From: a virus
Virus record (IMG/VR): IMGVR_UViG_3300025305_000195
Location: 1-20,281 of that record
DNA length: 20,281 bases
Direction: 5' to 3' (one strand)
Shown here: one piece after another, positions 7,184 through 20,281 of the stretch
Numbering within the stretch: the stretch's first letter is position 1
Layout: every line of letters starts with the position of its first letter
The notes under the pieces: model-generated
What the model saw: only the letters and a program-made list of their open reading frames with translations
What the model was told of the DNA's origin: nothing
Databases searched by the model: none
Made by a program: the position numbers and the translations under genes

Positions 7184-10060
7184 TTAATTTGATCTCATAG
7201 TAACAAACCATGCTGCTGTAGCATGTGAACCAGAACCATAGGCTAATTGTAAAGAACTACCTGAAGTGGAATAAGTTCTAGCTGGAGGGCTATTTTTAAC
7301 AACAGAAGAAATTGTAGCAGGAGTTCCACCACTATTATGAAACAAAACAAGATCCGTAAAAGTATTTGGATCACTTCCTCCAGTAACAACAGCTAAGATT
7401 CCACCTACACCACCAATAGTTACACTAGCAATAGTGGTAGCACTTGTTCCTACAGTAGTTTTTTGATTAGCTATAATTTGCCCAGTATCTTTACCTTGGC
7501 ATTTAATAAGATCGTATTGCGTTCCTAAATCAGCAGACTCTGGCCCAACTTTAAGAAACTCTGTGTTACTTGGATCACACCCTATTCCTACAGCATTATT
7601 AGCAGCATTAACTTTAAGCATACTGGTATTATCATCACTTTCAACTCTAAAATCTATGTCTGCTGAACCTTCATTAAATACTGTTTCGGCTGCTGCTAAG
7701 TGTATTAAATCCGCAGTAGTTGCATTTCCTATTGTTTTACCATCTGCTAGAACAAGATCATCTTTAATAGTTAAAAGACCAGCAGAAGAAAGTGTAAGTG
7801 CATCAGTAGCTGAAGCAACACCAATTGTGCCACCATCTTTAATTAAAATGTCATCTACAAATGTAACGATTCCTGTAGAAGCTACTGTCATTGCAGTAGC
7901 AGCAGAAGCTGAACCTATTGTTCCACCATCTTTAATGACAATATCATCTTTAAAAGTTACAATTCCAGCAGAAGAAATAGTCATTGCATCATTTGTTGAT
8001 GCTACACCAATAGTGCCACCATCTTTAATCATAAAATCATCTGCAATCGTAAGTAAACCAGCAGAACTGAGAGACATTTTTTCAGAGGCAGCTTCACTAG
8101 CAGCCGTTTTAAAACTTAACTTTGTAGCATTATTATCCGCTGCAAAATTACCTTCTGATACAGCTTCGATACCAGCAGCAACTAATATAGCATCTGTTCC
8201 TGCTCCTTCATCTGGTGCTTGAAAGAAAATAGAACCAAGTACATCGTTAACTGCAATATCATTATCCCCTGCTTGAAAAGTAAGAGAAGGTTCTTTACCA
8301 TCGCCTGTACCTACATGCTTGAGAACAAGACCATCATCAGCAACATGTGTAAGTGTAATTTCCTGATCATTACCAAAATAAATTACACTACTATCTGCAA
8401 GATATAAATCATTCCATTCTGCACTACTTGTACCTATATCTCTAGTACCACCTCCATCAGGAGCAAGATTTGAACCTATACTAGTAAGATCTGTACTTCC
8501 AATGTAAGTTTTAAGCCTAGAAGCTGCAGTTTTTCTATTTGTTCCCCCTGCTCCATTATCAATTATAAACAGGTCAGCATCTACAATAGCTTCACCAATA
8601 TCTGTACCGCCATCTATATCTAAAGCAGTTAAAGGAAACCCACCAGCAGTTTGAACTAGAGTATTAATTCTAGATAGAGCAGCTTTTCTATTTGTACCTC
8701 CAGCACCGTCATCTACAATGATCAGATCAGAAGTAGTTAAATCTGCCCCGATATCCGTGCCACCGTCTATATCTAGATCAGCAATTGGCACTCCTCCATC
8801 TGGAAATACTGGATTTTGAGAAAATGTTACAACTCCTCCAGAACTGATAGCAATAGCATCTGTATCAGAAGCAGAACCTATATTACCTGCGTCTGGTATT
8901 ACAATGTTACCTCCTGTAGTCATAGTACCACCACCAGTGTATGTACCTGCACCAGTTACATTAGCACCACTGAAAGTTAAAGCAGTTGTTGTACCAGATT
9001 TTATTATTAAGTTTCCAGAAGTATTAGTAGCACTACCGAATGTAGTACCATCATCTTTAAAGAATATATCTCCCCCACCTGCATCTAAAACAATATCTGT
9101 AGCAGCATCTACATTAAATAGAGCAGACGCAGACACTGTTAAATCTGTGCCATCTCCTTCTATCTTTTCACCATCATCTCCAAAAGTTATACCTACTCCA
9201 GAAGGAATATTTACATCACTAGTAGCTGTTAAATTAATATCTGCTCCAGAAGTTATTGTTAGATCAGTACTGTTACCTTCTATCTTTTCACCAGACCCAA
9301 ATGTAATGCCTACATCAGCAGGAATTACTACATCTGCTGTAGCAGTTAAATTAATGTTATTACCAGTAATAGTTAAATCCGTACCGTCACCCTCTATTTT
9401 TTCTCCATCATTACCAAATGTTATACCAATATCAGCAGGGATATTTACATCACCACCACTACCTACAGTAATTGATAAATCTGTACCATCTGATTCTATT
9501 TTTTCAGCAGTAGCAAAAGTTATACCTACGCCAGAGGGAATATTTACATCGGCTGTAGCAGTAAGATTGATATTGTTACCAGAGATAGTTAAATCAGTGC
9601 CATCACCTTCGATCTTTTCACCGTCATTACCGAAAGTTACACCTATATTTGCAGGTATATTAATATCTGCTCCCGATACTAAATATAAATCTGTACCGTC
9701 ACCGTAGATGTATTCTCCACCTTCGTCATTTAAATATAACCGTTTGGTGCTATCGATTACTACATCGTCTGAAAATTTAAAGTGATCTTCATCTTCCATC
9801 CAAGTCAGGACACCATCAGTTGTCTCCCCATCGAAAGTGACCACAATATCTGTACCAGCAGTACCATCACCAATAGTAATAGCTGTTCCTAAAAGTTTAG
9901 TTATATCACCACCTTCAGCACTAGTACCATCATGGGTATGTCCTGTATCGGCTGCAAATGCTGATACTAATTGATCAAATTCATCATTAAAATGTGATGC
10001 TTCGATAGTAGCACCGTCTACAATAGTAGATGAACTTTGTCTAGTGTAAGTAGCTCCCAT
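7184..10060 (-). CDS. Repeat-rich tail fibre or spike, 958 aa
   Basis: The start overlaps the nozzle stop by one base (TAATG) with an AGGAGG site upstream. Residues 1-60 include HFNDEFDQLVSAF and GHTHDGT, typical of the virion-attachment end of phage fibres. The shaft holds three repeat families. Residues about 119-318 hold five to six units of 34-40 residues around DGTDLTI...VNIPSGVGITFG..GEKIE. Residues 425-521 hold two units of about 51 residues sharing LDIDGGTDIG and GAGGTNRK. Residues 678-788 hold four units of 31 residues around IKDGGTIGVAS..DA. After NNAVGIG (about 821-827) comes a non-repeated C-terminal domain that would carry receptor contact or trimer registration. Ser/Thr/Gly/Asp-rich beta repeats fit a trimeric fibre. 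Fibre identity is well supported by the architecture; the receptor is unknown. Confidence 0.88.
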   Translation of the reverse strand: MGATYTRQSSSTIVDGATIEASHFNDEFDQLVSAFAADTGHTHDGTSAEGGDITKLLGTAITIGDGTAGTDIVVTFDGETTDGVLTWMEDEDHFKFSDDVVIDSTKRLYLNDEGGEYIYGDGTDLYLVSGADINIPANIGVTFGNDGEKIEGDGTDLTISGNNINLTATADVNIPSGVGITFATAEKIESDGTDLSITVGSGGDVNIPADIGITFGNDGEKIEGDGTDLTITGNNINLTATADVVIPADVGITFGSGEKIEGNSTDLTITSGADINLTATSDVNIPSGVGITFGDDGEKIEGDGTDLTVSASALFNVDAATDIVLDAGGGDIFFKDDGTTFGSATNTSGNLIIKSGTTTALTFSGANVTGAGTYTGGGTMTTGGNIVIPDAGNIGSASDTDAIAISSGGVVTFSQNPVFPDGGVPIADLDIDGGTDIGADLTTSDLIIVDDGAGGTNRKAALSRINTLVQTAGGFPLTALDIDGGTDIGEAIVDADLFIIDNGAGGTNRKTAASRLKTYIGSTDLTSIGSNLAPDGGGTRDIGTSSAEWNDLYLADSSVIYFGNDQEITLTHVADDGLVLKHVGTGDGKEPSLTFQAGDNDIAVNDVLGSIFFQAPDEGAGTDAILVAAGIEAVSEGNFAADNNATKLSFKTAASEAASEKMSLSSAGLLTIADDFMIKDGGTIGVASTNDAMTISSAGIVTFKDDIVIKDGGTIGSASAATAMTVASTGIVTFVDDILIKDGGTIGVASATDALTLSSAGLLTIKDDLVLADGKTIGNATTADLIHLAAAETVFNEGSADIDFRVESDDNTSMLKVNAANNAVGIGCDPSNTEFLKVGPESADLGTQYDLIKCQGKDTGQIIANQKTTVGTSATTIASVTIGGVGGILAVVTGGSDPNTFTDLVLFHNSGGTPATISSVVKNSPPARTYSTSGSSLQLAYGSGSHATAAWFVTMRSN
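7697..8029 (-). repeat. Fibre repeat family C, four 31-residue (93-nt) units
   Basis: Fibre residues 678-788 hold units beginning near IKDGGTIG at 678, 709 and 740 and a weaker fourth (LADGKTIG) near 771. The exact 31-residue spacing suggests recent tandem growth. A diverged relative (IPDAGNIGSAS) lies at about residue 388. Confidence 0.85.
8498..8788 (-). repeat. Fibre repeat family B, two units with a 51-residue period
   Basis: Fibre residues 425-470 and 476-521 are two copies of one unit that share LDIDGGTDIG, a hydrophobic L-I-I-D stretch, GAGGTNRK and an A-SR motif. No third copy is seen. Confidence 0.85.
9107..9706 (-). repeat. Fibre repeat family A, 34-40 residues per unit
   Basis: Within the fibre gene, fibre residues 119-318 hold five recognisable units plus a diverged sixth. 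Each contains DGTDL, then a short variable stretch, NIP, GITFG and GEKI. Unit lengths of 34, 38 and 40 residues show small in-frame insertions such as NINLTATAD, present in some copies only. Confidence 0.85.
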
Positions 10061-11571
10061 TATCTTCTTCCTCCTGGTACTACGTCTAATTCAAATCCTC
10101 TTATTATAAAAGGATTGTTTGTTGAGTTATCTTGTGAAATTCTAATTGCTATTGCAAAACCAGAACCTACCATCAGCTGTCTTAAAATAGGCGTTCCAAA
10201 ACCTCCGTAAAAACCACTTCCATAAGCAGTAGATCCATATAAAGGCAACCCTACTTCACTAACAGATATTCCTGCAGGTTGAATTATATCTGCATCTTCA
10301 TAATCAAACCTTGCTGAAAGCAGAAAAGTCATAGTGCCTTCTGCTTCGTAATTTATATTTATTCTTTTTAAAAGTTTTCTAATTCCTGGATCACCTAAAG
10401 TTAAGTCAGGTGATGTATAGGTTGCAGGAATATTTCCCCCATTAAAATTATTTCCAGACTCTTGTTTATAAACATAACCGTCATCATAACCGCCATGTAA
10501 AATATGTTCAGTATCTCCAATAAAATCACTAGTACAAACGTAAGGTTTTATACCTCTTATATCAGCCCACTCCCAATTTAAATCTCCTGCTGCTTGCCTT
10601 TTTAAAACTCCTATTAAACCTGGAGAAGCTATTTCAGCAGTTCCTGAAGAAGTAGGAAAAAATAATCTGTACTGCGTTTTTTCTCTTATTACTAGAGAAG
10701 ATATATCTGCACTAGTAGCTTCTGTTAAAGTGCTTTGTACAGCTTTAGATATAGTTCCTAATTCTACATCGCCAATTTTTTCTGTAGCAGCAACGGTACG
10801 AATACCATCAGGTGCTAAAAATATAATGTCACCAGCTACTTCCTGAATTGAAAACCTATTTGTACATCCAATATTTCTAGATACAGGAGCTACCTGAAAA
10901 TCTGCAATAGATGTACCAGCTAATCTAAATATAGAATTTTCACAAAATATATACAGTTGATCACGAAAAGCTTTTAAACCTTCTATCTTATCTCCTACAT
11001 CTATCGTTCCTGCTCCATTTGCAGCAGTAAAATCATTTTCAGAAAAAGGAGCAGAAAAATCTATCTGACTAGTATTGCCTGAATTAGCTCCTGTAAAAAA
11101 TAAATGGTTTCTAAACTCTTCTACAGTATGTGGATCTGAAGGTGCTCCAGTACCACTTAATAAAGTATAAGTACTACCATCGTAGATAAAAGCTTGATTA
11201 GCTCCATCTGCACCTGCTATCTTTTCTGTATTAGCCCATCTGTATTTAGTAAAACTGTACCTACCAGCACTGGTTCTATTGGTAACTATACTTGTCCATC
11301 CAGAACCTGTACCTTTTACTAAATTAGCTCCTCTAGCTGCAATAACACTAGATCCTAATATCTGTACACCAAGAACAGAGCCAGAACCAGAAATTTCATT
11401 ACTATCGTATTTAGTAAAGCCGTTTATTCTACGATACCCTCCCGTTATAGAAGGTTCAAAGTTTTCTAACTTTTTACAAGCTCCAGGGGGCATAGCCAAG
11501 ACACTTGTATCTTTAATTAAACCTCCTTCACAAGCTACTGGAAAAGGTTGTTGTTGAGAAGTTTGTGGCAT
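10060..11571 (-). CDS. Tail nozzle-type protein (T7 gp12 / P22 gp10-like), 503 aa
   Basis: The ATG directly abuts the stop of the adaptor gene, so translation is probably coupled. The N-terminus (LIKDTSVLAMPPGACKKLEN, then GGYRRINGF) matches the usual opening of podoviral tail-tube nozzle proteins. The middle consists of repeated short beta units such as GANQAFIYDGSTYTLL, FRNHLFFTG, FRDQLYIFCENSIFRL and DIIFLAPDGIRTV, as in a beta-propeller. The C-terminal 120 residues are beta-rich (GDPGIRKLLKRININYEAEG, YGSTAYGSGFYGG). Nozzle proteins such as T7 gp12 and P22 gp10 are propeller-containing proteins that extend the tail channel below the adaptor, and order here (adaptor, nozzle, fibre) agrees. 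The assignment rests on this pattern and order, not on a search. Confidence 0.78.
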   Translation of the reverse strand: MPQTSQQQPFPVACEGGLIKDTSVLAMPPGACKKLENFEPSITGGYRRINGFTKYDSNEISGSGSVLGVQILGSSVIAARGANLVKGTGSGWTSIVTNRTSAGRYSFTKYRWANTEKIAGADGANQAFIYDGSTYTLLSGTGAPSDPHTVEEFRNHLFFTGANSGNTSQIDFSAPFSENDFTAANGAGTIDVGDKIEGLKAFRDQLYIFCENSIFRLAGTSIADFQVAPVSRNIGCTNRFSIQEVAGDIIFLAPDGIRTVAATEKIGDVELGTISKAVQSTLTEATSADISSLVIREKTQYRLFFPTSSGTAEIASPGLIGVLKRQAAGDLNWEWADIRGIKPYVCTSDFIGDTEHILHGGYDDGYVYKQESGNNFNGGNIPATYTSPDLTLGDPGIRKLLKRININYEAEGTMTFLLSARFDYEDADIIQPAGISVSEVGLPLYGSTAYGSGFYGGFGTPILRQLMVGSGFAIAIRISQDNSTNNPFIIRGFELDVVPGGRR

Positions 11572-12879
11572 TTACACCGCCCTTATATAATTATTGGTAT
11601 TTATACTTTCTGTACGAATCCTCTTAATACCTTCTTCATATTCCTGTAAACACAAAGAAGCAGCCTGATAGTCTGATCTTAGGGTATGTGCATAGTACCT
11701 GACTCTAGCAGTTATAACATCATGGTATCTGGCAGGTAAGTCTGGAGTATCTGTATCGGAAGATAATTCTGTAGGCTCATCCCAAAAATCAAATTTTAAA
11801 TTATGCCCACCGCTTTTTGGCACTGGAGATACTATTATTTCACTATTTAAACTTTTAGTTACAACAGAAGGTGTGCTGTACCTGTTTGGATCACGTTTAC
11901 TATCGTATGCTTTATGTTTAGAACTGTACTCTTCCCATGTAATAAAATCTAATTTTTTACCCTCTTCATCCAGAGAAACTGTTACAAAATCTACATGCAC
12001 ATTTTCACTAGCTTCATTTGAAAGAGTTAAAAAGGGAGTTTGTGTAGAAGGTGTGAAAGTCGTAGTATAGGTTTTACCCCATCCTAAATTAGTAGTTGTA
12101 AAAGAGGTAGAAAGATCAGCATCTTTATCTGCAGAAGAACCTGCGTACACCTTTAAGGTAGCTGTAGTAGCACTGGTATCTCCAGAAACAAACCTAACAT
12201 TTACTCGATAAGTTTCTCCTTCGGACAGGTCAGTTTTACCATCTGCATCATACAGTTGGGTATCTATAGTTCCATCATTTAATACAACAGAGCCATTATG
12301 TTCATTACTAAAAGCAGGAGTACCAGAAGTAGATGTACCTGCTGGATTGCTAGAACGGGAAGTCCAGTAATTACTATAGTCAGTAGAAACTTCAAATTCT
12401 CCACCTTCTAAAACATTTCTAGGTTCTAGAATCATGTTATCATATTCTACATGTCTAGAATTTATAACAGTCCCTACTGTTCGTGTAGCTCCTGAAAAAA
12501 CACCTGTAATAGTTTCTGCTGAAAATGTTCCAGAAAGAGGTTCTACAACTAAGTAATTAGTTTCTGAAACTTGTACAACTCCTACAGCAGAGGACGTACC
12601 CCCCGTGATACGTTCATGTTTTCTAAAAGTTCCCGAACCTCCACTTATAGTAAGTTTAATTGGATGTTTATAAACTTCTTTACCCTGAATAAGAGCGTAC
12701 TCAGCAGATGTATAATTCCAAGGCCATTCTACTTGATGTAAATCTATATCACGAATAGCTTTATTTATTGTATCTCCAATGAACACATGAAAAGAAGCTG
12801 ATTGTCCACTTACACTACTAGAAATAGTAGGTTCGTTTAGTTCTCTCATTATATTATTAAACAAAGTAAGATAGTTCAT
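11572..12879 (-). CDS. Tail adaptor-type protein (T7 gp11 / P22 gp4-like) with inserted beta domains, 435 aa
   Basis: Residues 1-76 (MNYLTLFNNIMRELNEP, then INKAIRDIDLHQVEWPWN) and residues about 308-435 (ARYHDVITARVRYYAHTL, AASLCLQEYEEGIKRI) look like the helical halves of podoviral head-tail adaptors. Two beta-rich stretches sit between them. Residues about 77-145 repeat an SGTF...ITG...SGAT/SAVG pattern. Residues about 157-305 look like a carbohydrate-binding (CBM4/9-type) jelly roll: NVLEGGEFE at the start, a solvent-facing Trp at YWTS, ETYRVNVRF, YTTTFTPSTQTPFLTL and a closing VDFVTVSL. The adaptor would plug the portal and dock the nozzle encoded next. Order and the end segments support the adaptor call. 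The lectin-like call is from strand pattern only. Confidence 0.75.
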   Translation of the reverse strand: MNYLTLFNNIMRELNEPTISSSVSGQSASFHVFIGDTINKAIRDIDLHQVEWPWNYTSAEYALIQGKEVYKHPIKLTISGGSGTFRKHERITGGTSSAVGVVQVSETNYLVVEPLSGTFSAETITGVFSGATRTVGTVINSRHVEYDNMILEPRNVLEGGEFEVSTDYSNYWTSRSSNPAGTSTSGTPAFSNEHNGSVVLNDGTIDTQLYDADGKTDLSEGETYRVNVRFVSGDTSATTATLKVYAGSSADKDADLSTSFTTTNLGWGKTYTTTFTPSTQTPFLTLSNEASENVHVDFVTVSLDEEGKKLDFITWEEYSSKHKAYDSKRDPNRYSTPSVVTKSLNSEIIVSPVPKSGGHNLKFDFWDEPTELSSDTDTPDLPARYHDVITARVRYYAHTLRSDYQAASLCLQEYEEGIKRIRTESINTNNYIRAV

Positions 12880-12888
12880 TACTGATCC

Positions 12889-13245
12889 TTACAAGATAGG
12901 TGTAAATAGTTCTTCTAAAAATACAGATACATAAAAAGCATCAGCAGTAGCAGCTTGTGCTTTTAAAACATCTGTTGCGTCTAAATATATATTCAAATTA
13001 TCAAGTCTTAAATAATCATCAGTAGCTATCTGTTTATCATGTATAAGACTATAAGTTGCACTAGCAGAAGTATCTGTCCACTGAATATTTAAATTTCTAG
13101 CACTACTATCGTAATTAGCTATGAACATTTCTCGAACTATAGCTGTAGTTTTAGCAGGTACTGTGTATACAGTAGTCAAATTTGTACTGGTTAAATTTAC
13201 AGCAGCATTTATTAATCTTACAGATCTTTGTAAATTACCAACCAT
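12889..13245 (-). CDS. Small hypothetical structural protein, 118 aa
   Basis: The gene begins right after tandem in-frame stops (TAG TAA) of the protease gene, with a weak AGAGA site inside that gene's end, and stops 9 nt before the adaptor. The product is short and beta-rich: TNLTTVYTVPAKTTAIVREM, NYDSSARNLNIQWTD, SATYSLIHDKQI and DAFYVSVFLEEL look like strands of one compact beta-sandwich. Small proteins of this kind occur in phage head-completion or decoration roles. I cannot say which applies here. It carries no catalytic motif or membrane segment. Confidence 0.75.
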   Translation of the reverse strand: MVGNLQRSVRLINAAVNLTSTNLTTVYTVPAKTTAIVREMFIANYDSSARNLNIQWTDTSASATYSLIHDKQIATDDYLRLDNLNIYLDATDVLKAQAATADAFYVSVFLEELFTPIL

Positions 13246-13248
13246 TTA

Positions 13249-14112
13249 CTAATCTCTTTTTATAAAATTTCTTATAGGTTCTATTTCTTCTACTTCAGGC
13301 TCATCTCCGAGTATTTTTTCACCATAACCATTGGATCTTAAAAAAATTCTAATTTCAGATATTGGCCTAGCCCATGCCATATGAGTAACTACATTTCCCC
13401 ACCCGTAGGCTGATACCATACTTGGTACGCCAATTAGTTCGTACTCTCTACGAGGACTGTACACATACAAAGAACCTCCTGAATTACCAAATATAATCGG
13501 GGCTGATGCTAAATATAGATTATTACCATCTCTGTCTCTACCATATCCAGAAAGTAGTCCCATAGTAGGAAAAGGAGGTTTACCTAATCCTGCACCTACT
13601 GCGTATACTGTAGAAAATATCCAAGGGCCACTATCTTTATCCTCTGGGTATAGAGTAGCTACATGAGGCATCTGTCTTTCTTTATCTGCAACTTGTAACA
13701 AAGCAAGATCCCTACTTTTATCATAAGCTACGATATGTGCAAGCCTTCCCATAGTGCCTACAGCCGTACTAAAATTATTATATTCCCACATGTCTATGTT
13801 GACAGGTCTACGGTTTTCAGTCTCTACATTTTCTTGTTTATCTGAGTTCCATACCTTAGTAATCTTTACATAATTCTGGACTACATGCCAGTTTGTAAGA
13901 ACATAACTTTCATACTCTTGTTCTTTGTTTAATTCTGAATGTATAACAGTTCCAGAACCTGTACCATTACCTACTCTTACAAGAACTGTAGGATATAACA
14001 TTTCTAAATGTTCTTGTTTAGGTACAGTACCACTCTTATTTGAATTAGCAAATCCTACAGTCGATCCTAGTGTAATAATTACAGACAATAAAATGGCAGC
14101 AAGTATTTTCAT
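13249..14112 (-). CDS. Exported trypsin-like serine protease, 287 aa
   Basis: The catalytic triad of chymotrypsin-fold (S1-type) proteases is visible: His76 in LTNWHVV, Asp135 in SRDLALLQV and Ser211 in FGNSGGSLY. Residues 1-22 form a Sec signal peptide, with Lys2, a hydrophobic core ILAAILLSVIITLG and a likely cut after GFA22. The mature protein should therefore act in the periplasm or envelope of a Gram-negative host. The domain spans about residues 40-260. No PDZ domain and no cysteine are seen, so it is like the protease core of HtrA/DegP enzymes without their regulatory part. The gene follows hsp20 by 3 nt, with its AGGAG site inside that gene, so the pair is co-translated. A signal peptide argues against procapsid maturation in the cytoplasm. 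Possible roles are lysis help, envelope stress control or virion incorporation. The enzyme class is secure; the role is not. Confidence 0.9.
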   Translation of the reverse strand: MKILAAILLSVIITLGSTVGFANSNKSGTVPKQEHLEMLYPTVLVRVGNGTGSGTVIHSELNKEQEYESYVLTNWHVVQNYVKITKVWNSDKQENVETENRRPVNIDMWEYNNFSTAVGTMGRLAHIVAYDKSRDLALLQVADKERQMPHVATLYPEDKDSGPWIFSTVYAVGAGLGKPPFPTMGLLSGYGRDRDGNNLYLASAPIIFGNSGGSLYVYSPRREYELIGVPSMVSAYGWGNVVTHMAWARPISEIRIFLRSNGYGEKILGDEPEVEEIEPIRNFIKRD

Positions 14113-14115
14113 TTT

Positions 14116-14511
14116 CTACTCCTTTGATATTGCAATTACTTTTTCTTTTTCTTCTTCTGGAATAACTTTTTCTAAGTCTATTTCCAGTAACCCATCTTTT
14201 AATCTGGCATTTGTAATATTCATGTTAGGTGCTAGGCAAAAATCTTTACGAAAATTTCTGTTAGCAATTCCTTTCCATGTATAATCGCAATCATTTTTTT
14301 CCTGTTTATTAGCAGATATACTAAGAGTATTTTTTTGTGTAGTAACTGTCAGATCATCTGATGAAAATCCTGCAACAGCCATAGACAATTTATATTCGTT
14401 AGTACCTGCTTTTTCCACATTGTATGGTGGATAAGTTGTTTTATTTACAGTTGTAAACATTTGGTCAAACATACGGTCAAAACCAATGAACATTTTACTT
14501 AAATCATTCAT
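14116..14511 (-). CDS. Small heat-shock protein, Hsp20 / alpha-crystallin family, 131 aa
   Basis: The sequence matches the IbpA-like group closely in plan. The N-terminus has GFDRMFDQMF, then YPPYNVEK opens the alpha-crystallin domain (about residues 27-115) with EYKLSMAVAGFSSDDLTVTT, NTLSISANK, a WKGIANRNFRKDF stretch and the diagnostic ARLKDGLLEIDL. The C-terminal VIAI (about 125-128) can serve as the I-x-I-type motif that joins subunits into oligomers. Such proteins hold unfolding clients in an ATP-independent manner. Length is normal for the family. A clear AGGAG site precedes the start. Marine T4-like cyanophages are known to carry hsp20; here it sits between head and tail genes of a podovirus-like operon, which suggests help in folding or assembling virion proteins. 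The family call is very sure. Confidence 0.95.
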   Translation of the reverse strand: MNDLSKMFIGFDRMFDQMFTTVNKTTYPPYNVEKAGTNEYKLSMAVAGFSSDDLTVTTQKNTLSISANKQEKNDCDYTWKGIANRNFRKDFCLAPNMNITNARLKDGLLEIDLEKVIPEEEKEKVIAISKE

Positions 14512-14580: not shown

Positions 14581-15129
14581 TTAGGTAAACGGTAATGCTA
14601 AAGTACCATCTCCAAAAATAACACCATCAACGATCCATTTAGAATCACTTGCAGCTAAATACGTTAAGCGACTTCCAAGAAATCGGCCTTTCGTATCTCC
14701 ATCAGCAACAAATTGATGGTCAGCAGCAGCAGGAGTAGAAAAACCTATCGTAGCACCTGCGTTAACAGCTACATGGCTATCTACATTATCTTTGTCTACA
14801 ATCCAACACCCACCCTGTAATACATCAGAAGCTGAAGCAGCATTAATAGTCCAGGTTCCAGTAAAAGTAGTTGTTACAACGAAGTCAAAGAAATATCCTG
14901 CAGCAGCAGCAGGTAAAGTAATAGTAATTCCTCCTGCACGATCTAGAGTGAAAATTTTTCCCGAATCTGCTGCAACCAAAGTCTTAGTAGAATCTGTAAT
15001 TGCTTCTACAGACCTACGCAAACCAGATACAGTCATTAACGGAGCATTTCCAGCAGTAAGATCATAGCTGCTTGCATACTGTGGCACTTGCAAAAACCTA
15101 TTATTTAGGTCAGTTGTCATAGAAACCAT
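14581..15129 (-). CDS. Putative head-decoration or fibre-like protein, 182 aa
   Basis: The start at 15129 (MVSMTTD) has AGGAG 8 nt upstream, which favours it over the internal ATG three codons on. Residues 45-110 contain TLVAADSGKIFTLDRAGGIT, TLPAAAAGYFFDFVV and WTINAASASDVLQGG. This strand-loop pattern is seen in trimeric beta proteins of phage capsid decorations and fibres. The middle section continues with short beta strands and the protein ends in DGTLALPFT. It lies just after the coat gene and another small beta protein, which suits capsid decoration. No catalytic motif is present. The family is not named with certainty. Confidence 0.75.
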   Translation of the reverse strand: MVSMTTDLNNRFLQVPQYASSYDLTAGNAPLMTVSGLRRSVEAITDSTKTLVAADSGKIFTLDRAGGITITLPAAAAGYFFDFVVTTTFTGTWTINAASASDVLQGGCWIVDKDNVDSHVAVNAGATIGFSTPAAADHQFVADGDTKGRFLGSRLTYLAASDSKWIVDGVIFGDGTLALPFT

Positions 15130-15149: not shown

Positions 15150-15182
15150 AGTTAAAGAAGGGGGAGAGAACTAGTCCCTCCC
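15150..15182 (-). terminator. Possible transcription attenuator after the first decoration gene
   Basis: Read on the minus strand, GGGAGGGA pairs with UCUCUCCC (eight pairs including one G-U) around a CUAGU loop, followed by the pyrimidine-rich tail CCUUCUUU. It sits in the 66-base gap after the coat and first decoration genes. The tail is weaker than a standard U-tract, so partial termination is more likely than a full stop. Confidence 0.4.
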
Positions 15183-15195
15183 TCTCCTAGTTAAT

Positions 15196-15693
15196 TTAGA
15201 ATGTTACTGCTTGAAGTGAATCAGTTTCATCTAGACCCGAAATATCTGCAAGAATTGCATATACCCGAATCTTACCAGTTGAAACGTCATTTGCACCTGC
15301 ATTTACTTTAATATCAATCGTATCTGTAGCAGTAATACGATTGGAAAAAGTAGTAACAGCCGTATAATCTACATGACCGTTAGTACCTGCACCAGCATAG
15401 CCAGTACCTGTAGCATCAAACCCGTCTACAAAGTCATCCCCTGCAGCAAAGTCAACGTCTAGCGTAGGAGTAGTACCGTTAAGAGCAGTAAGAACTTCTA
15501 CACCAGCATGTATAATATACGATTCTGCTGGAACATCAATCGCTTGAATAATATCAGCAGCAGTTAACGCACTGATACCGCCAGCCGTGCAAACAGCAGC
15601 GATATCTACGGTTTTTTCAAGGACGTAAACACCCCTAGAACGAGAGGGATGTCCAGACGTACCTTGACCTGTTGTGTGATCATAAGTAGTCAT
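15196..15693 (-). CDS. Putative capsid-associated (decoration) protein, 165 aa
   Basis: The gene follows the coat gene after 14 nt with a strong AAGGAGGG site, so high expression alongside coat is expected. The product is Gly/Ala/Thr/Asp-rich, low in Lys and in aromatic residues, and looks like a beta-sandwich: GVYVLEKTVDIAAV, AESYIIHAGVEVLTAL, TPTLDVDFAAGDDF and IRVYAILADISGL. The N-terminal 20 residues (TTYDHTTGQGTSGHPSRSRG) look disordered. Position, strong translation signals and composition suit a protein present in many copies on the capsid. A head-completion role cannot be ruled out. I do not recognise a named family. Confidence 0.75.
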   Translation of the reverse strand: MTTYDHTTGQGTSGHPSRSRGVYVLEKTVDIAAVCTAGGISALTAADIIQAIDVPAESYIIHAGVEVLTALNGTTPTLDVDFAAGDDFVDGFDATGTGYAGAGTNGHVDYTAVTTFSNRITATDTIDIKVNAGANDVSTGKIRVYAILADISGLDETDSLQAVTF

Positions 15694-15707: not shown

Positions 15708-16607
15708 TTAATCTATTGTGATGTGTTCAACGATCAAACCTTTTGACCGAATAACTTTACGCCCAAAGACATGCAATCCACGCACGATATCCGCAAAGGA
15801 ATCTGGATCACGAACTACTTCAGTCTTAGCAATATGATTAGCTGTAGCAACAGCAGACATATGACCTGACATAACTTTGTAGTAGTTACTTGTCGATGAT
15901 GCAGCAAAATTGTTAGTCATATAGCAAGAAAATCCTTGGATTTTACCTGCAAAGATTTTACCGTTACGCAAAGGTGAATTTACATCCCCTGTTACAGAAG
16001 CATCCATCAATTTGCTGGAAGTCTGTGCAGCCTGTTCCCAAAATTCGGGAGAGGCTAGGAACCATCTATTCTCCTCTGGCACATCGTTTGAGTTTAAACG
16101 TCTAGCATGGTTAGCTAGAACATTGATTGGGTCAACTTCACCTGAAGCAAAACCAACATCCTGTCCTGAACCGTCAGAACCTACTGTAGTTCCAGCACCT
16201 GAAACCATAGCAGCAATGACGTTTGTATCGAACTCGTTCTTCAATGCATAAGCACCAGAACTAGTTGCAAGGGCTTCCCAATTAACATGGCTTTGACGTT
16301 CTTCAATATCGTCTACTTTAAAAGCAAACGCATTGCCTTGGTCAACTACCAGTGTTAGTTGGTCGTCTTGCAACTCTTGTGGGCTTAGAACTGAACCACG
16401 AGTATACGATGCGACAGAAATAGTTGGCTCTTTGATGATTTTAACCGTGTCACCAAAATTTTCAATTTCTCCTGCATAGTCGGTATTTGAAATATCCTCA
16501 ACAACCGAGGCTGTGCGGAAGAATTTAAGAACTTTTTGGCTATAGATAGCAGGAGCCCAATTCCCATTAGGGAGATTGGAGTACCCACCAGCAGCAGAAA
16601 AAGCCAT
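15708..16607 (-). CDS. Major capsid protein, HK97-fold type, 299 aa
   Basis: A near-ideal AGGAGG site precedes the ATG, and the scaffold gene lies 17 nt upstream, the usual scaffold-coat order. The N-terminus (NWAPAIYSQKVLKFFRTASV) is typical of coat proteins that start with a short arm. Residues about 50-100 (GDTVKIIKEPTISVASYTRG, then DQLTLVVDQGNAFAFKVDDI) match the E-loop and following strands of HK97-fold coats. A long helix follows (VNWEALATSSGAYALKNEFD), then the axial-domain part with NRWFLASPEFWEQ and a closing FGRKVIRSKGLIVEHITID. Length is typical of podovirus coats. GC content is clearly higher than in the left-hand genes, with many C-ending codons, as expected for the most abundant virion protein. 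The coat call is well supported by sequence style and context. Confidence 0.88.
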   Translation of the reverse strand: MAFSAAGGYSNLPNGNWAPAIYSQKVLKFFRTASVVEDISNTDYAGEIENFGDTVKIIKEPTISVASYTRGSVLSPQELQDDQLTLVVDQGNAFAFKVDDIEERQSHVNWEALATSSGAYALKNEFDTNVIAAMVSGAGTTVGSDGSGQDVGFASGEVDPINVLANHARRLNSNDVPEENRWFLASPEFWEQAAQTSSKLMDASVTGDVNSPLRNGKIFAGKIQGFSCYMTNNFAASSTSNYYKVMSGHMSAVATANHIAKTEVVRDPDSFADIVRGLHVFGRKVIRSKGLIVEHITID

Positions 16608-17577: not shown

Positions 17578-20281
17578 TTAAAAATTCTGTCCAGCAGCCC
17601 CTAGATCTTGCGTAGTAGGAACTATGCTTATTCTAGGGCTGGTTTCTTCCTCTGTTGCCATAAATCCTTCTGGTTTATATACAGGAAGAGGGATAGATGT
17701 ATTATAATTGAGTTCTTTAGCTTTATTATAAAAATCTCTGTCGTAAGAAGAATTAAAGTCAATTTTTTTAGATGCAGCAACTTTTTTCTTATCGGGATTG
17801 ACTTCGTAAAATTCTACTTCTTTTGGTTCTATAACAGCTATAGCAGCTTTAGCAGTCGATTTTAGAAATGGTACGACCCCTTGATCTGAGACAATTTCTT
17901 GTGGAATAATTCTTGTACTATAGGTATTGAAGTATTCATTTTCTACATTTTCAGTAAGGCCAGTACCTTTAGCATCTCTTCGGTTTTGAAACCACAAAGC
18001 TTTTCCTGCTGGATTAGAATACGTTTTAGAATTAATTTCATTAAAAGTACTTTTTATTAAATTCTTTAAATTAGAAAGTATACCAGATTTATCTTTTTGT
18101 AAATCAGCTACAATCCTAGCATTATCTCTATCAAAGGTTAAAACTCCATTTCTAATTGGGTTACTAGAAACAGGTTCAAAAGCATTTGGGTATGCCATTA
18201 TATTCATAAGACTAACAGGTGTATCATCTTTCTTACTTGCAAAATCTCTTTTTCCTTTTTTTGTATGTAAAGCTATATTCATTCTGTTGATAATTACTCC
18301 TAGTATAGCATCAGTAGCTACAGTATCTCTATCTTCTGTGTATAATAGTTTAGCAAGTCCTTCTATTTCCTGATCGGTTACATTTAAAGTTTTATCTCCG
18401 AATTTTACTTGCATCGGTTCTGCTTGAGATTCAGAAACTCTATCTCCTTCTGCGTAACCTCTAGAATCTAATTGTGCTACAAAAGGTTTGCCAGCATCGT
18501 TGATATTATTAAGCGTATCGTACCCTATTTTCTGTGCATCTTTCTTAGATACTTTATACTCTCCATTTGATACATTTATATCCTGTGCTCCAGTAACAGG
18601 ATTACCAAATTGATTAAAGCCAGAAACGGACTGTTGTTTTTGTACTTTATTTACCATAGAATCTATTTTTTTTTTGCCCCCTGCCATTTCTACAGCAGGA
18701 GCATTTATAATAAAAGAATCTGGTTCTGCTTTCATTGGGATACTATCGCTAGTCGGCCCTCCTTCTCCTTGTATAAGGCCCGATTTGTTTATCTGAGGAA
18801 CTTCCCCCCCTGCTTGCATGTTCTTACGATAATCTTCCATATCTTGATTTATTACTTCTTTTAATTCCTTTTCTGTAGCTCTCATAAGATCTACACTTGC
18901 TGCTGATGGAAAATTTTCTAACCCTATTTCATTAGCACGATCCCAAGCTTCTTGGTCTGTCATATTTTTTTTATTACTAGGATTATATCCTGGTATTAAA
19001 TACGCTGTACCTTCCTGATCTGATATAATTTTGCCCAAGATAGTTGTCATACTACCGTCAGGATTTTCTCTGCCTAGACCTTCATCTAAATTTTTTCTAT
19101 GAAAATCTAAATATCTTTGTTCTTGAGGAGTAAATTTTTTTGGTTGTACAAACGATATAACACCTCCTGCTTGCATATCTCTAGTAGAGTCTCGTTGTGC
19201 TCTATCCCAAATATTTTGCGGAAGATTTAAATAATATTCTGTTTCTTCTGGTGTTTTTTCCGATTTTATAATTGCTCTTGCTAAAGCTTCTAGAATTTCT
19301 GGATCATTTACATCTACTTTACTATCAGCACCTGTAATACCAAATCTAGCAAGTTCTTGAGTAATAACATTTATTTTGCCTTGAATATCTTCTGCAGTAT
19401 TTTCATTGGGAGGAGAATAAGTATTTGCTATTTCTGCTATAGTTTTATCCCTGTATCTACCCTGTTGTAAAGTCATAAATAAAACTCTTAATCCAGCTTC
19501 GTCACTATCAAATGTAGCAAAACCAGAATCGTCTTTCCCTGTTCCCCCTGCAAAGTCTACACCTTCAACGTATCTTACATTTCCAGGGTTTTTAGATATG
19601 TCTAGATTGGGATCTGGAGATCTTTCTTCTGTAACATCTACTGAAGGTTCCCTGACAAAAGGTCTTTCAGTACTAACTCCAGATGGCATACCTTCAGGTG
19701 GTTGTTCTACAAATTTTTCAGTGCTAACTCCAGATGGCCTACCTTCAGATACCATTTGGCTAGTACCCGTATCTTGTACAAAAGCTTCTCTTCTAGAAGG
19801 TTCTGACAATCTTTCAGAATCAAGCATATTTAAAGGTTTATCTTTTAATGTTAGTACGGGTGCAGGTATTCTTTCAACTGTAATATTATCAGGATCATCA
19901 GGATCGGTTACAAATGTATTTCCTTCTGCCCTTCTTTCTAATATTTCTTCAGTAGGAGATTTATAAGGTATATATTCTATTTCTGGTCTGGGTGTTCTAT
20001 CTTTTCTTCGTTCAATACCTTCTAGTATTCTAGCTCTTTCTTCATTAGAAAAACTTTTACTACGAAATGCTTCTCTATCAAAAGCTCCTTCTTCTTCTAA
20101 ATCCTGTTCTCTTGATCTGTAAGGTGTTTCAGGAGGAGCACTAGGATATCCATCTCGTCTTGCAGGAGGAACAAACCCCATTGGCCTCTGATCTTCAGGA
20201 TATCTAACTCCTTCATAAGTGTATCTTGTTCCAGCACCACCTACTGTTTCTCCAACTACGGGTCTAGTATCTTCAAGTTCT
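17578..20281 (-). CDS. Multidomain virion protein with SleB-like hydrolase-type C-terminal domain, 5' end beyond the right edge
   Basis: The frame stays open to the right edge (33 more codons, ELEDTRPVVGETVGG... to DQRP, before the Met at 20181), so that Met is probably internal. Numbering from it: residues 1-190 are charged and disordered, with a duplicated PSGVSTE unit near 149-171. Residues 198-335 carry NPGNVRY, FATFDSDEAGLRVL and IANTYSPPNENTAEDI, a pattern known in phage structural proteins. DMQAGG marks occur at 335 and NMQAGG at 454. Residues 472-500 (GEGGPTSDSIPM...FIINAPAVEMAGG) resemble another common virion motif. Residues 601-760 resemble SleB/CwlJ cell-wall hydrolases: LAKLLYTEDRD, AILGVIINRM, NAFEPVSS, GKALWFQNR and EYFNTYS. 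It may be a virion muralytic or portal-proximal protein. The gene lies upstream of scaffold. The frame is certain, the domain calls are moderate. Confidence 0.78.
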   Translation of the reverse strand, partial: ELEDTRPVVGETVGGAGTRYTYEGVRYPEDQRPMGFVPPARRDGYPSAPPETPYRSREQDLEEEGAFDREAFRSKSFSNEERARILEGIERRKDRTPRPEIEYIPYKSPTEEILERRAEGNTFVTDPDDPDNITVERIPAPVLTLKDKPLNMLDSERLSEPSRREAFVQDTGTSQMVSEGRPSGVSTEKFVEQPPEGMPSGVSTERPFVREPSVDVTEERSPDPNLDISKNPGNVRYVEGVDFAGGTGKDDSGFATFDSDEAGLRVLFMTLQQGRYRDKTIAEIANTYSPPNENTAEDIQGKINVITQELARFGITGADSKVDVNDPEILEALARAIIKSEKTPEETEYYLNLPQNIWDRAQRDSTRDMQAGGVISFVQPKKFTPQEQRYLDFHRKNLDEGLGRENPDGSMTTILGKIISDQEGTAYLIPGYNPSNKKNMTDQEAWDRANEIGLENFPSAASVDLMRATEKELKEVINQDMEDYRKNMQAGGEVPQINKSGLIQGEGGPTSDSIPMKAEPDSFIINAPAVEMAGGKKKIDSMVNKVQKQQSVSGFNQFGNPVTGAQDINVSNGEYKVSKKDAQKIGYDTLNNINDAGKPFVAQLDSRGYAEGDRVSESQAEPMQVKFGDKTLNVTDQEIEGLAKLLYTEDRDTVATDAILGVIINRMNIALHTKKGKRDFASKKDDTPVSLMNIMAYPNAFEPVSSNPIRNGVLTFDRDNARIVADLQKDKSGILSNLKNLIKSTFNEINSKTYSNPAGKALWFQNRRDAKGTGLTENVENEYFNTYSTRIIPQEIVSDQGVVPFLKSTAKAAIAVIEPKEVEFYEVNPDKKKVAASKKIDFNSSYDRDFYNKAKELNYNTSIPLPVYKPEGFMATEEETSPRISIVPTTQDLGAAGQNF
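19665..19748 (-). repeat. 51-nt tandem duplication in the right-edge gene
   Basis: Two 33-base segments (19665-19697 and 19716-19748) differ at two positions and repeat with a 51-base period. They encode two copies of a 17-residue unit containing PSGVSTE in the disordered N-terminal region. Confidence 0.85.

Follow-up and report, generated by a model that had tools for sequence, protein, structure and literature searches.

Proteases of the HtrA/Deg family (DegP, DegQ, and DegS) are exported enzymes with a trypsin fold and the motifs TNxHV, D-x-AL, and GNSGG. The viral protease described here shares the fold and the motifs, is predicted to be exported as well, and finds its best sequence and fold matches in this family. 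Unlike DegP, DegQ, and DegS, it has no PDZ domain and a long His-Asp stretch (59 residues apart), and, unlike HtrA/Deg, its family was absent from the bacterial and archaeal genomes that were scanned with peptide patterns. The phrog_9683 proteases (Sulfitobacter phages pCB2047-A/-C, NYA-2014a) are likewise small and trypsin-like with a signal-peptide-like start, and in pCB2047-C the gene is the last one of the lysis cassette; the phrog_9683 profile matches the protease described here weakly (E 0.0017). It would resemble Rz/Rz1 spanins as an exported phage factor at the outer layers in lysis, and spanin-like genes adjoin its relatives, but the protein is a protease and not a membrane-fusion protein. 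No spanin was found in ~13% of genomes, many marine cyanophages among them, and their outer-membrane step was left open (PMC6139136).

The neighboring gene encodes an Hsp20 of the same small heat shock family as other marine phage Hsp20s (phrog_432; T4-like cyanophages, HTVC008M, and HTVC115P). The HTVC115P protein is 41% identical to it, but the HTVC115P gene lies near ribonucleotide reductase genes, whereas the gene described here lies beside a protease gene in a podovirus capsid-neck operon. A capsid-scaffolding role was suggested for the small heat shock proteins of cyanophages (PMC3827213).

Each of the three elements, namely marine phage Hsp20, HtrA-like proteases, and lysis cassettes, is known separately. 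In the openly accessible literature that was searched, we found no description of a protease in lysis cassettes or of an hsp20-protease pair, and none of a PDZ-less HtrA-like protease that recurs in marine lysis modules. The main text of a survey of HMO-2011-type phages (PMC9038755) does not contain the words "hsp20," "protease," or "peptidase."

The hsp20 and protease genes lie between capsid and neck genes

The window, the whole stretch of DNA that was analyzed, covers 20.3 kb from the genome of an HMO-2011-type podovirus, a marine phage, with the genes read on the minus strand. Its capsid, scaffold, and neck genes share their order with HMO-2011 and HTVC033P. A large virion protein, a scaffold-like protein, a P22-type capsid protein, a 165-aa gene, and a 182-aa gene are followed by Hsp20, the serine protease, a 118-aa gene, an adaptor, a neck protein, and a tail fibre. 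The hsp20 (14116-14511) and protease (13249-14112) open reading frames and their placement between head and neck/tail genes were confirmed. On the upstream side, the major capsid protein (15708-16607; phrog_267, 2.3e-59) is of the P22/HMO-2011 type and 57% identical to the HTVC033P coat protein. The 165-aa product (15196-15693) is probably capsid-associated, as its gene is kept behind the capsid gene in HMO-2011-type relatives. The 182-aa protein (14581-15129), of no assigned function and immediately upstream of hsp20, is retained in most close relatives of the window (group 1, below). Immediately downstream of the protease lies the 118-aa gene (12889-13245; phrog_1276, 1.5e-9), which stays beside the adaptor in relatives, and then the SU10-type head-tail adaptor (11572-12879; SU10_adaptor, 4.1e-14; phrog_10775, 4.3e-31).

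The 131-aa Hsp20 has no signal peptide and carries an alpha-crystallin domain at residues 34-129 (Pfam HSP20, PF00011, 5.2e-18; phrog_432, 6.5e-38). Its gene is separated from that of the protease by 3 nt (14113-14115). The protease Shine-Dalgarno sequence AAAGGAG (14119-14125) falls within the final codons of hsp20 and extends into the TAG stop of that gene, so an earlier note on this DNA was fair in stating that the two genes share a translation signal. All 14 Hsp20-linked contigs examined for this feature had a gap of 3-4 nt, and the Shine-Dalgarno sequence was preserved as AAGGAG or AAGGGG in group-1 relatives. Judging from this arrangement, translational coupling of hsp20 and protease is possible.

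The protease is a PDZ-less HtrA-like enzyme with a signal-peptide-like N-terminus

The 287-aa protease matched Trypsin_2 (PF13365, 1e-12) and Trypsin (PF00089, 3e-5) above the cut-off, and its fold and the order of its His-Asp-Ser triad place it among the trypsin-like proteases (clan PA). Profile matches to Do, DegQ, and DegS (2e-8 to 1e-3) identified the domain as HtrA-type. The best PDB fold matches of its AlphaFold model (pLDDT 83, pTM 0.78; the N-terminal helix and linker at lower confidence) were DegQ, DegP, and DegS, with a Foldseek value of 8.6e-12 for DegQ. The catalytic residues named earlier were exact, namely His76 in TNWHV (13885-13887), Asp135 in RDLALL (13708-13710), and Ser211 in GNSGG (13480-13482), and all three were invariant in 37 diverse homologues. 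The protein has no cysteine, and both profile and fold matches cover the protease domain only; the chain ends ~75 residues past Ser211. The absence of cysteine and of a PDZ domain had thus been described correctly.

A Sec signal peptide is predicted at residues 1-22 (MKILAAILLSVIITLGSTVGFA; 14047-14112), with an n-h-c layout consisting of a charged start, a hydrophobic core (2.98), and a G-F-A site; cleavage is likely before NSNKSG. The same layout recurred in all 37 homologues, as the earlier prediction of export would have it: by rule and alignment, the start was charged in all but one, a hydrophobic core followed, and a small-x-small site was usual. Mean column identity across this alignment was 68%. 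The dN/dS of ~0.07 indicates purifying selection and therefore more than a chance open reading frame. This value, the column identity, and the invariant triad make it very likely that the protease is enzymatically functional.

At least 125 pattern-confirmed relatives of the protease were found in IMG/VR, and a second clade, ~43% identical, comprised 44 loci that partly overlap the first set. Among 50,697 phage records, there was one match, a weak one (25%). Two short-peptide-pattern scans of 84,980 prokaryote species genomes, which a divergent relative could escape, returned none. The family was thus seen here in viruses only, as far as pattern scans of bacterial and archaeal genomes reach, and a cellular origin was not adopted.

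The pair recurs at two loci, but the two genes have largely separate histories

Adjacency of hsp20 and protease extends beyond near-identical genomes, since it recurs with Hsp20s that are 29-39% identical and proteases that are 41-44% identical. Group 1, to which the window belongs, comprises ~22 contigs, with proteases 74-100% identical where complete. In group 2, the pair likewise lies between capsid and adaptor genes, with a gap of ~16 nt; its Hsp20 is 38% and its protease 41-44% identical. In a third set (L190, L196, L198, L201, L202, and L205), the pair is followed by lysis genes. The fullest contig, L201, reads Hsp20-protease-small exported protein-holin-like-TM-lysozyme-TerS; L205 shares this order and the four shorter contigs agree with it. 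The holin-like protein, lysozyme, and TerS of this set are 75%, 50%, and 65% identical to HMO-2011 g58, g56, and g55. The pair therefore occupies two loci of HMO-2011-type phages, one between capsid and neck genes and one at the head of the lysis module, which leaves room for a functional tie.

Neither gene depends on the other for its presence. Most protease loci have no adjoining Hsp20, an Hsp20 without protease occupies the neck locus in HMO-2011-type contigs L070-L074, L079, L080, and L115, and neither is present there in ~25 contigs. At L070:3560-4175, in a sister of group 2, Hsp20 is present and a small exported cysteine-bearing protein replaces the protease; the coiled-coil TM gene found behind the group-2 protease is present there too. 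In another HMO-2011-type phage (L076:2898-3638), the capsid-adaptor slot holds a gene that looks sulfotransferase-like by eye, which suggests that accessory genes of various kinds can occupy this slot.

In the protease tree, Hsp20-linked sequences were interleaved with Hsp20-less ones, and the AU test rejected the Hsp20-linked proteases as one clade. The dS to three relatives was higher for the protease (1.5-2.3) than for the adjacent Hsp20 (0.65-0.87) and the capsid gene (0.34-0.63), and identity among relatives dipped across the protease gene. Over 767 nt, the mature protease of L009-L011 shares 97.7% identity with genes that lie in an Hsp20-less tail-fibre context; the swapped block starts at about codon 21, its flanks have no homology, and the local signal peptide is retained. 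These sequences indicate that Hsp20 and protease largely do not share a history, and that phages exchange the mature protease domain without the neighboring Hsp20. Context counts, the tree with the AU test, and the dS contrast rule out an obligate, co-evolving Hsp20-protease cassette.

In three contigs, two contexts meet within the protease gene; no conclusion rests on any of these contigs alone. In L065 and L185, the neck-locus and lysis-locus pairs are joined reciprocally, with the switch within the protease gene; these contigs may be assembly chimeras or may reflect recombination of two copies. L008 appears to run on into the tail-fibre context and may be a chimera; it contributed one of the five group-1 sequences to the tree and the AU test, and L009-L011 show the exchange without it.

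Protease relatives recur beside lysis genes

Protease relatives of several lineages lie in lysis cassettes. The order is fibre-protease-3TM holin (phrog_3427; PF11351)-Rz-like-lysozyme (PF00959, 5e-12) in L152, with L172 and L224 similar, and protease-coiled-coil TM-2TM-TM-3TM holin-lysozyme in L208, which L209 and L215 follow within contig reach. A holin-like gene and, immediately upstream of the protease, an o-spanin gene (phrog_1275, 1e-14) precede the protease gene in L125, L126, and L136, and ~10 contigs of the L140 type read TerL-2TM-protease-3TM holin-portal. Small TM proteins were more common close to the protease (16/45 at a distance of up to two genes vs. 13/86 further off; odds ratio 3.1, p 0.008), a modest effect with p between 0.008 and 0.06 depending on the hydropathy cut-off (0.06 at the strictest). 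PF11351 gave three matches over 25 long contigs, two of them directly beside the protease, so that a 3TM holin of this family is not general.

Two isolates show a comparable arrangement. In Microcystis phage Mae-JY35 (amidase-TM-Rz-Rz1-TM-protease), the protease ends the lysis cassette and is ~25% identical to the window family. In Sulfitobacter phage pCB2047-C, the order is GH108 endolysin-holin-118aa-XhlA-like-protease, and the protease is tied to the window family by weak profile similarity. Both proteases may be analogues rather than relatives.

No clear lysis gene was seen in the TerL-protease-portal and fibre-protease-large virion protein contexts, and the protease frequently follows tail-fibre genes (e.g., L012-L021 and L123-L139). 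The window protease itself has capsid and neck genes rather than lysis genes as neighbors; the first holin-like gene seen in a close relative lies ~18 kb downstream, and the lysis genes of this group seem to lie elsewhere. This position was counted against a lysis role, as was the habit of phage accessory genes to gather near fibre and lysis genes regardless of function.

A short protein with a TM segment and a coiled coil lies behind the protease in two differing contexts (L063:3958-4242 and L211:4833-5090). It is weakly Rz-like (phrog_8821, E 0.008) and is a possible partner of the protease.

Possible roles of the protease and Hsp20

Since a conserved protease with a predicted export signal recurs in the lysis modules of different phages, the simplest reading is that of a periplasmic enzyme with an accessory part in lysis, and the earlier alternative of a role in envelope breakdown fits these contexts. 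We favor, with modest confidence, a late, Sec-exported, PDZ-less HtrA-domain protease that assists lysis, next to an Hsp20 that serves separately as a holdase of the capsid operon. The sequences show the fold class, the triad, the signal-like N-terminus, the purifying selection, the repeated proximity to lysis genes, and the independent exchange of the protease; its late timing, periplasmic location, substrate, and lysis role are inferred from them. The protease would be translated late, together with the virion proteins, exported via Sec, freed of its signal peptide, and folded in the host periplasm. There, it would cut envelope proteins, most likely those that tether or stabilize the outer membrane and peptidoglycan, or, alternatively, those that hold back lysis proteins of the phage itself, and thereby let holin and lysozyme achieve complete virion release. 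Because some cassettes carry spanins as well, the protease cannot be viewed simply as a stand-in for them. The Hsp20 would be a cytoplasmic holdase, often co-inherited and translationally adjacent but dispensable for the protease family. It behaves as a capsid-operon chaperone, of which the protease is a frequent but not constant neighbor, and is optional for the protease.

The conserved, presumably exported enzyme with its intact triad is a directly testable candidate for outer-membrane opening in phages without recognized spanins, also through the analogues in two cultivable phages, and may be a contributor to cell bursting that has gone unnoticed. A less likely reading is that this virus-specific protease constitutes a distinct lysis step of marine phages by degrading envelope proteins, with Hsp20 in some lineages silencing the precursor until export; if true, a proteolytic route to envelope opening would exist besides spanins.

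Superinfection exclusion or receptor destruction, in which the exported protease would trim receptors on the outer membrane and thereby stop phage from binding to an infected cell or to its debris, seems unlikely. The signal peptide, the strong conservation, the frequent position behind tail-fibre genes, and the frequent exchange between phages agree with it, but a late-operon position is late for exclusion and the protease is directly linked to holin, spanin, and lysozyme genes in several lineages.

The earlier note had proposed, as one possibility, an IbpA plus DegP-like pair that serves two compartments. In such a model, Hsp20 would hold aggregating virion proteins in the cytoplasm, and the protease would clear misfolded periplasmic proteins, keeping the cell productive until lysis. 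As an obligate pair, this is contradicted by the proteases without Hsp20, the Hsp20s at the same locus without protease, the AU test, and the alleles exchanged with Hsp20-less phages. As a looser association, it is possible but unsupported, and we regard it as quite unlikely. Recurrence at two loci with two protease clades, the overlap of Shine-Dalgarno sequence and stop, and the resemblance of the HtrA domain to DegP and DegQ speak for it; the separate histories of the two genes speak against it, and in a protein without a PDZ domain, one would not expect a quality-control cage of the DegP type. As this case shows, striking gene neighbors can be associated largely by position: the protease is exchanged between phages independently of Hsp20.

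The functional tie for which the two loci leave room could be one of escort, with the holdase keeping the protease precursor unfolded and inactive until Sec export and so sparing virion proteins from the same operon. This would account for a cytoplasmic and an exported protein traveling together, and translational adjacency agrees with it; it is improbable, as most protease relatives are presumably exported without a linked Hsp20 and Hsp20 occurs at the locus without the protease. Packaging of the protease into the virion, or processing of structural proteins by it during assembly, is very improbable even with structural genes flanking the window copy, given the signal-peptide-like N-terminus of every homologue, the lysis-cassette members of the same family, and the lack of any match to prohead-protease families among Pfam and PHROGs profiles.

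Other features of the window

The 503-aa neck protein (10060-11571) matched phrog_5107, labeled amidase (1e-70). This label looks wrong, as the head-closure family phrog_578 also matches, and the match was not counted as lysis evidence. In the 867-aa virion-type protein (17578-20181), residues 194-336 matched phrog_873, labeled endolysin (2.4e-15), with tape-measure-like matches beyond. Residues 159-280 of the adaptor may be a carbohydrate-binding-module insert (PF02018, E 0.0017, below the cut-off); the adaptor is shorter in relatives outside group 1. Directly 3' of the 165-aa gene lies a terminator-like hairpin (15162-15182, minus strand) with 8 pairs, a loop of 5, and a T-rich tail, so that transcription of hsp20 and the protease gene could be below that of the capsid genes.
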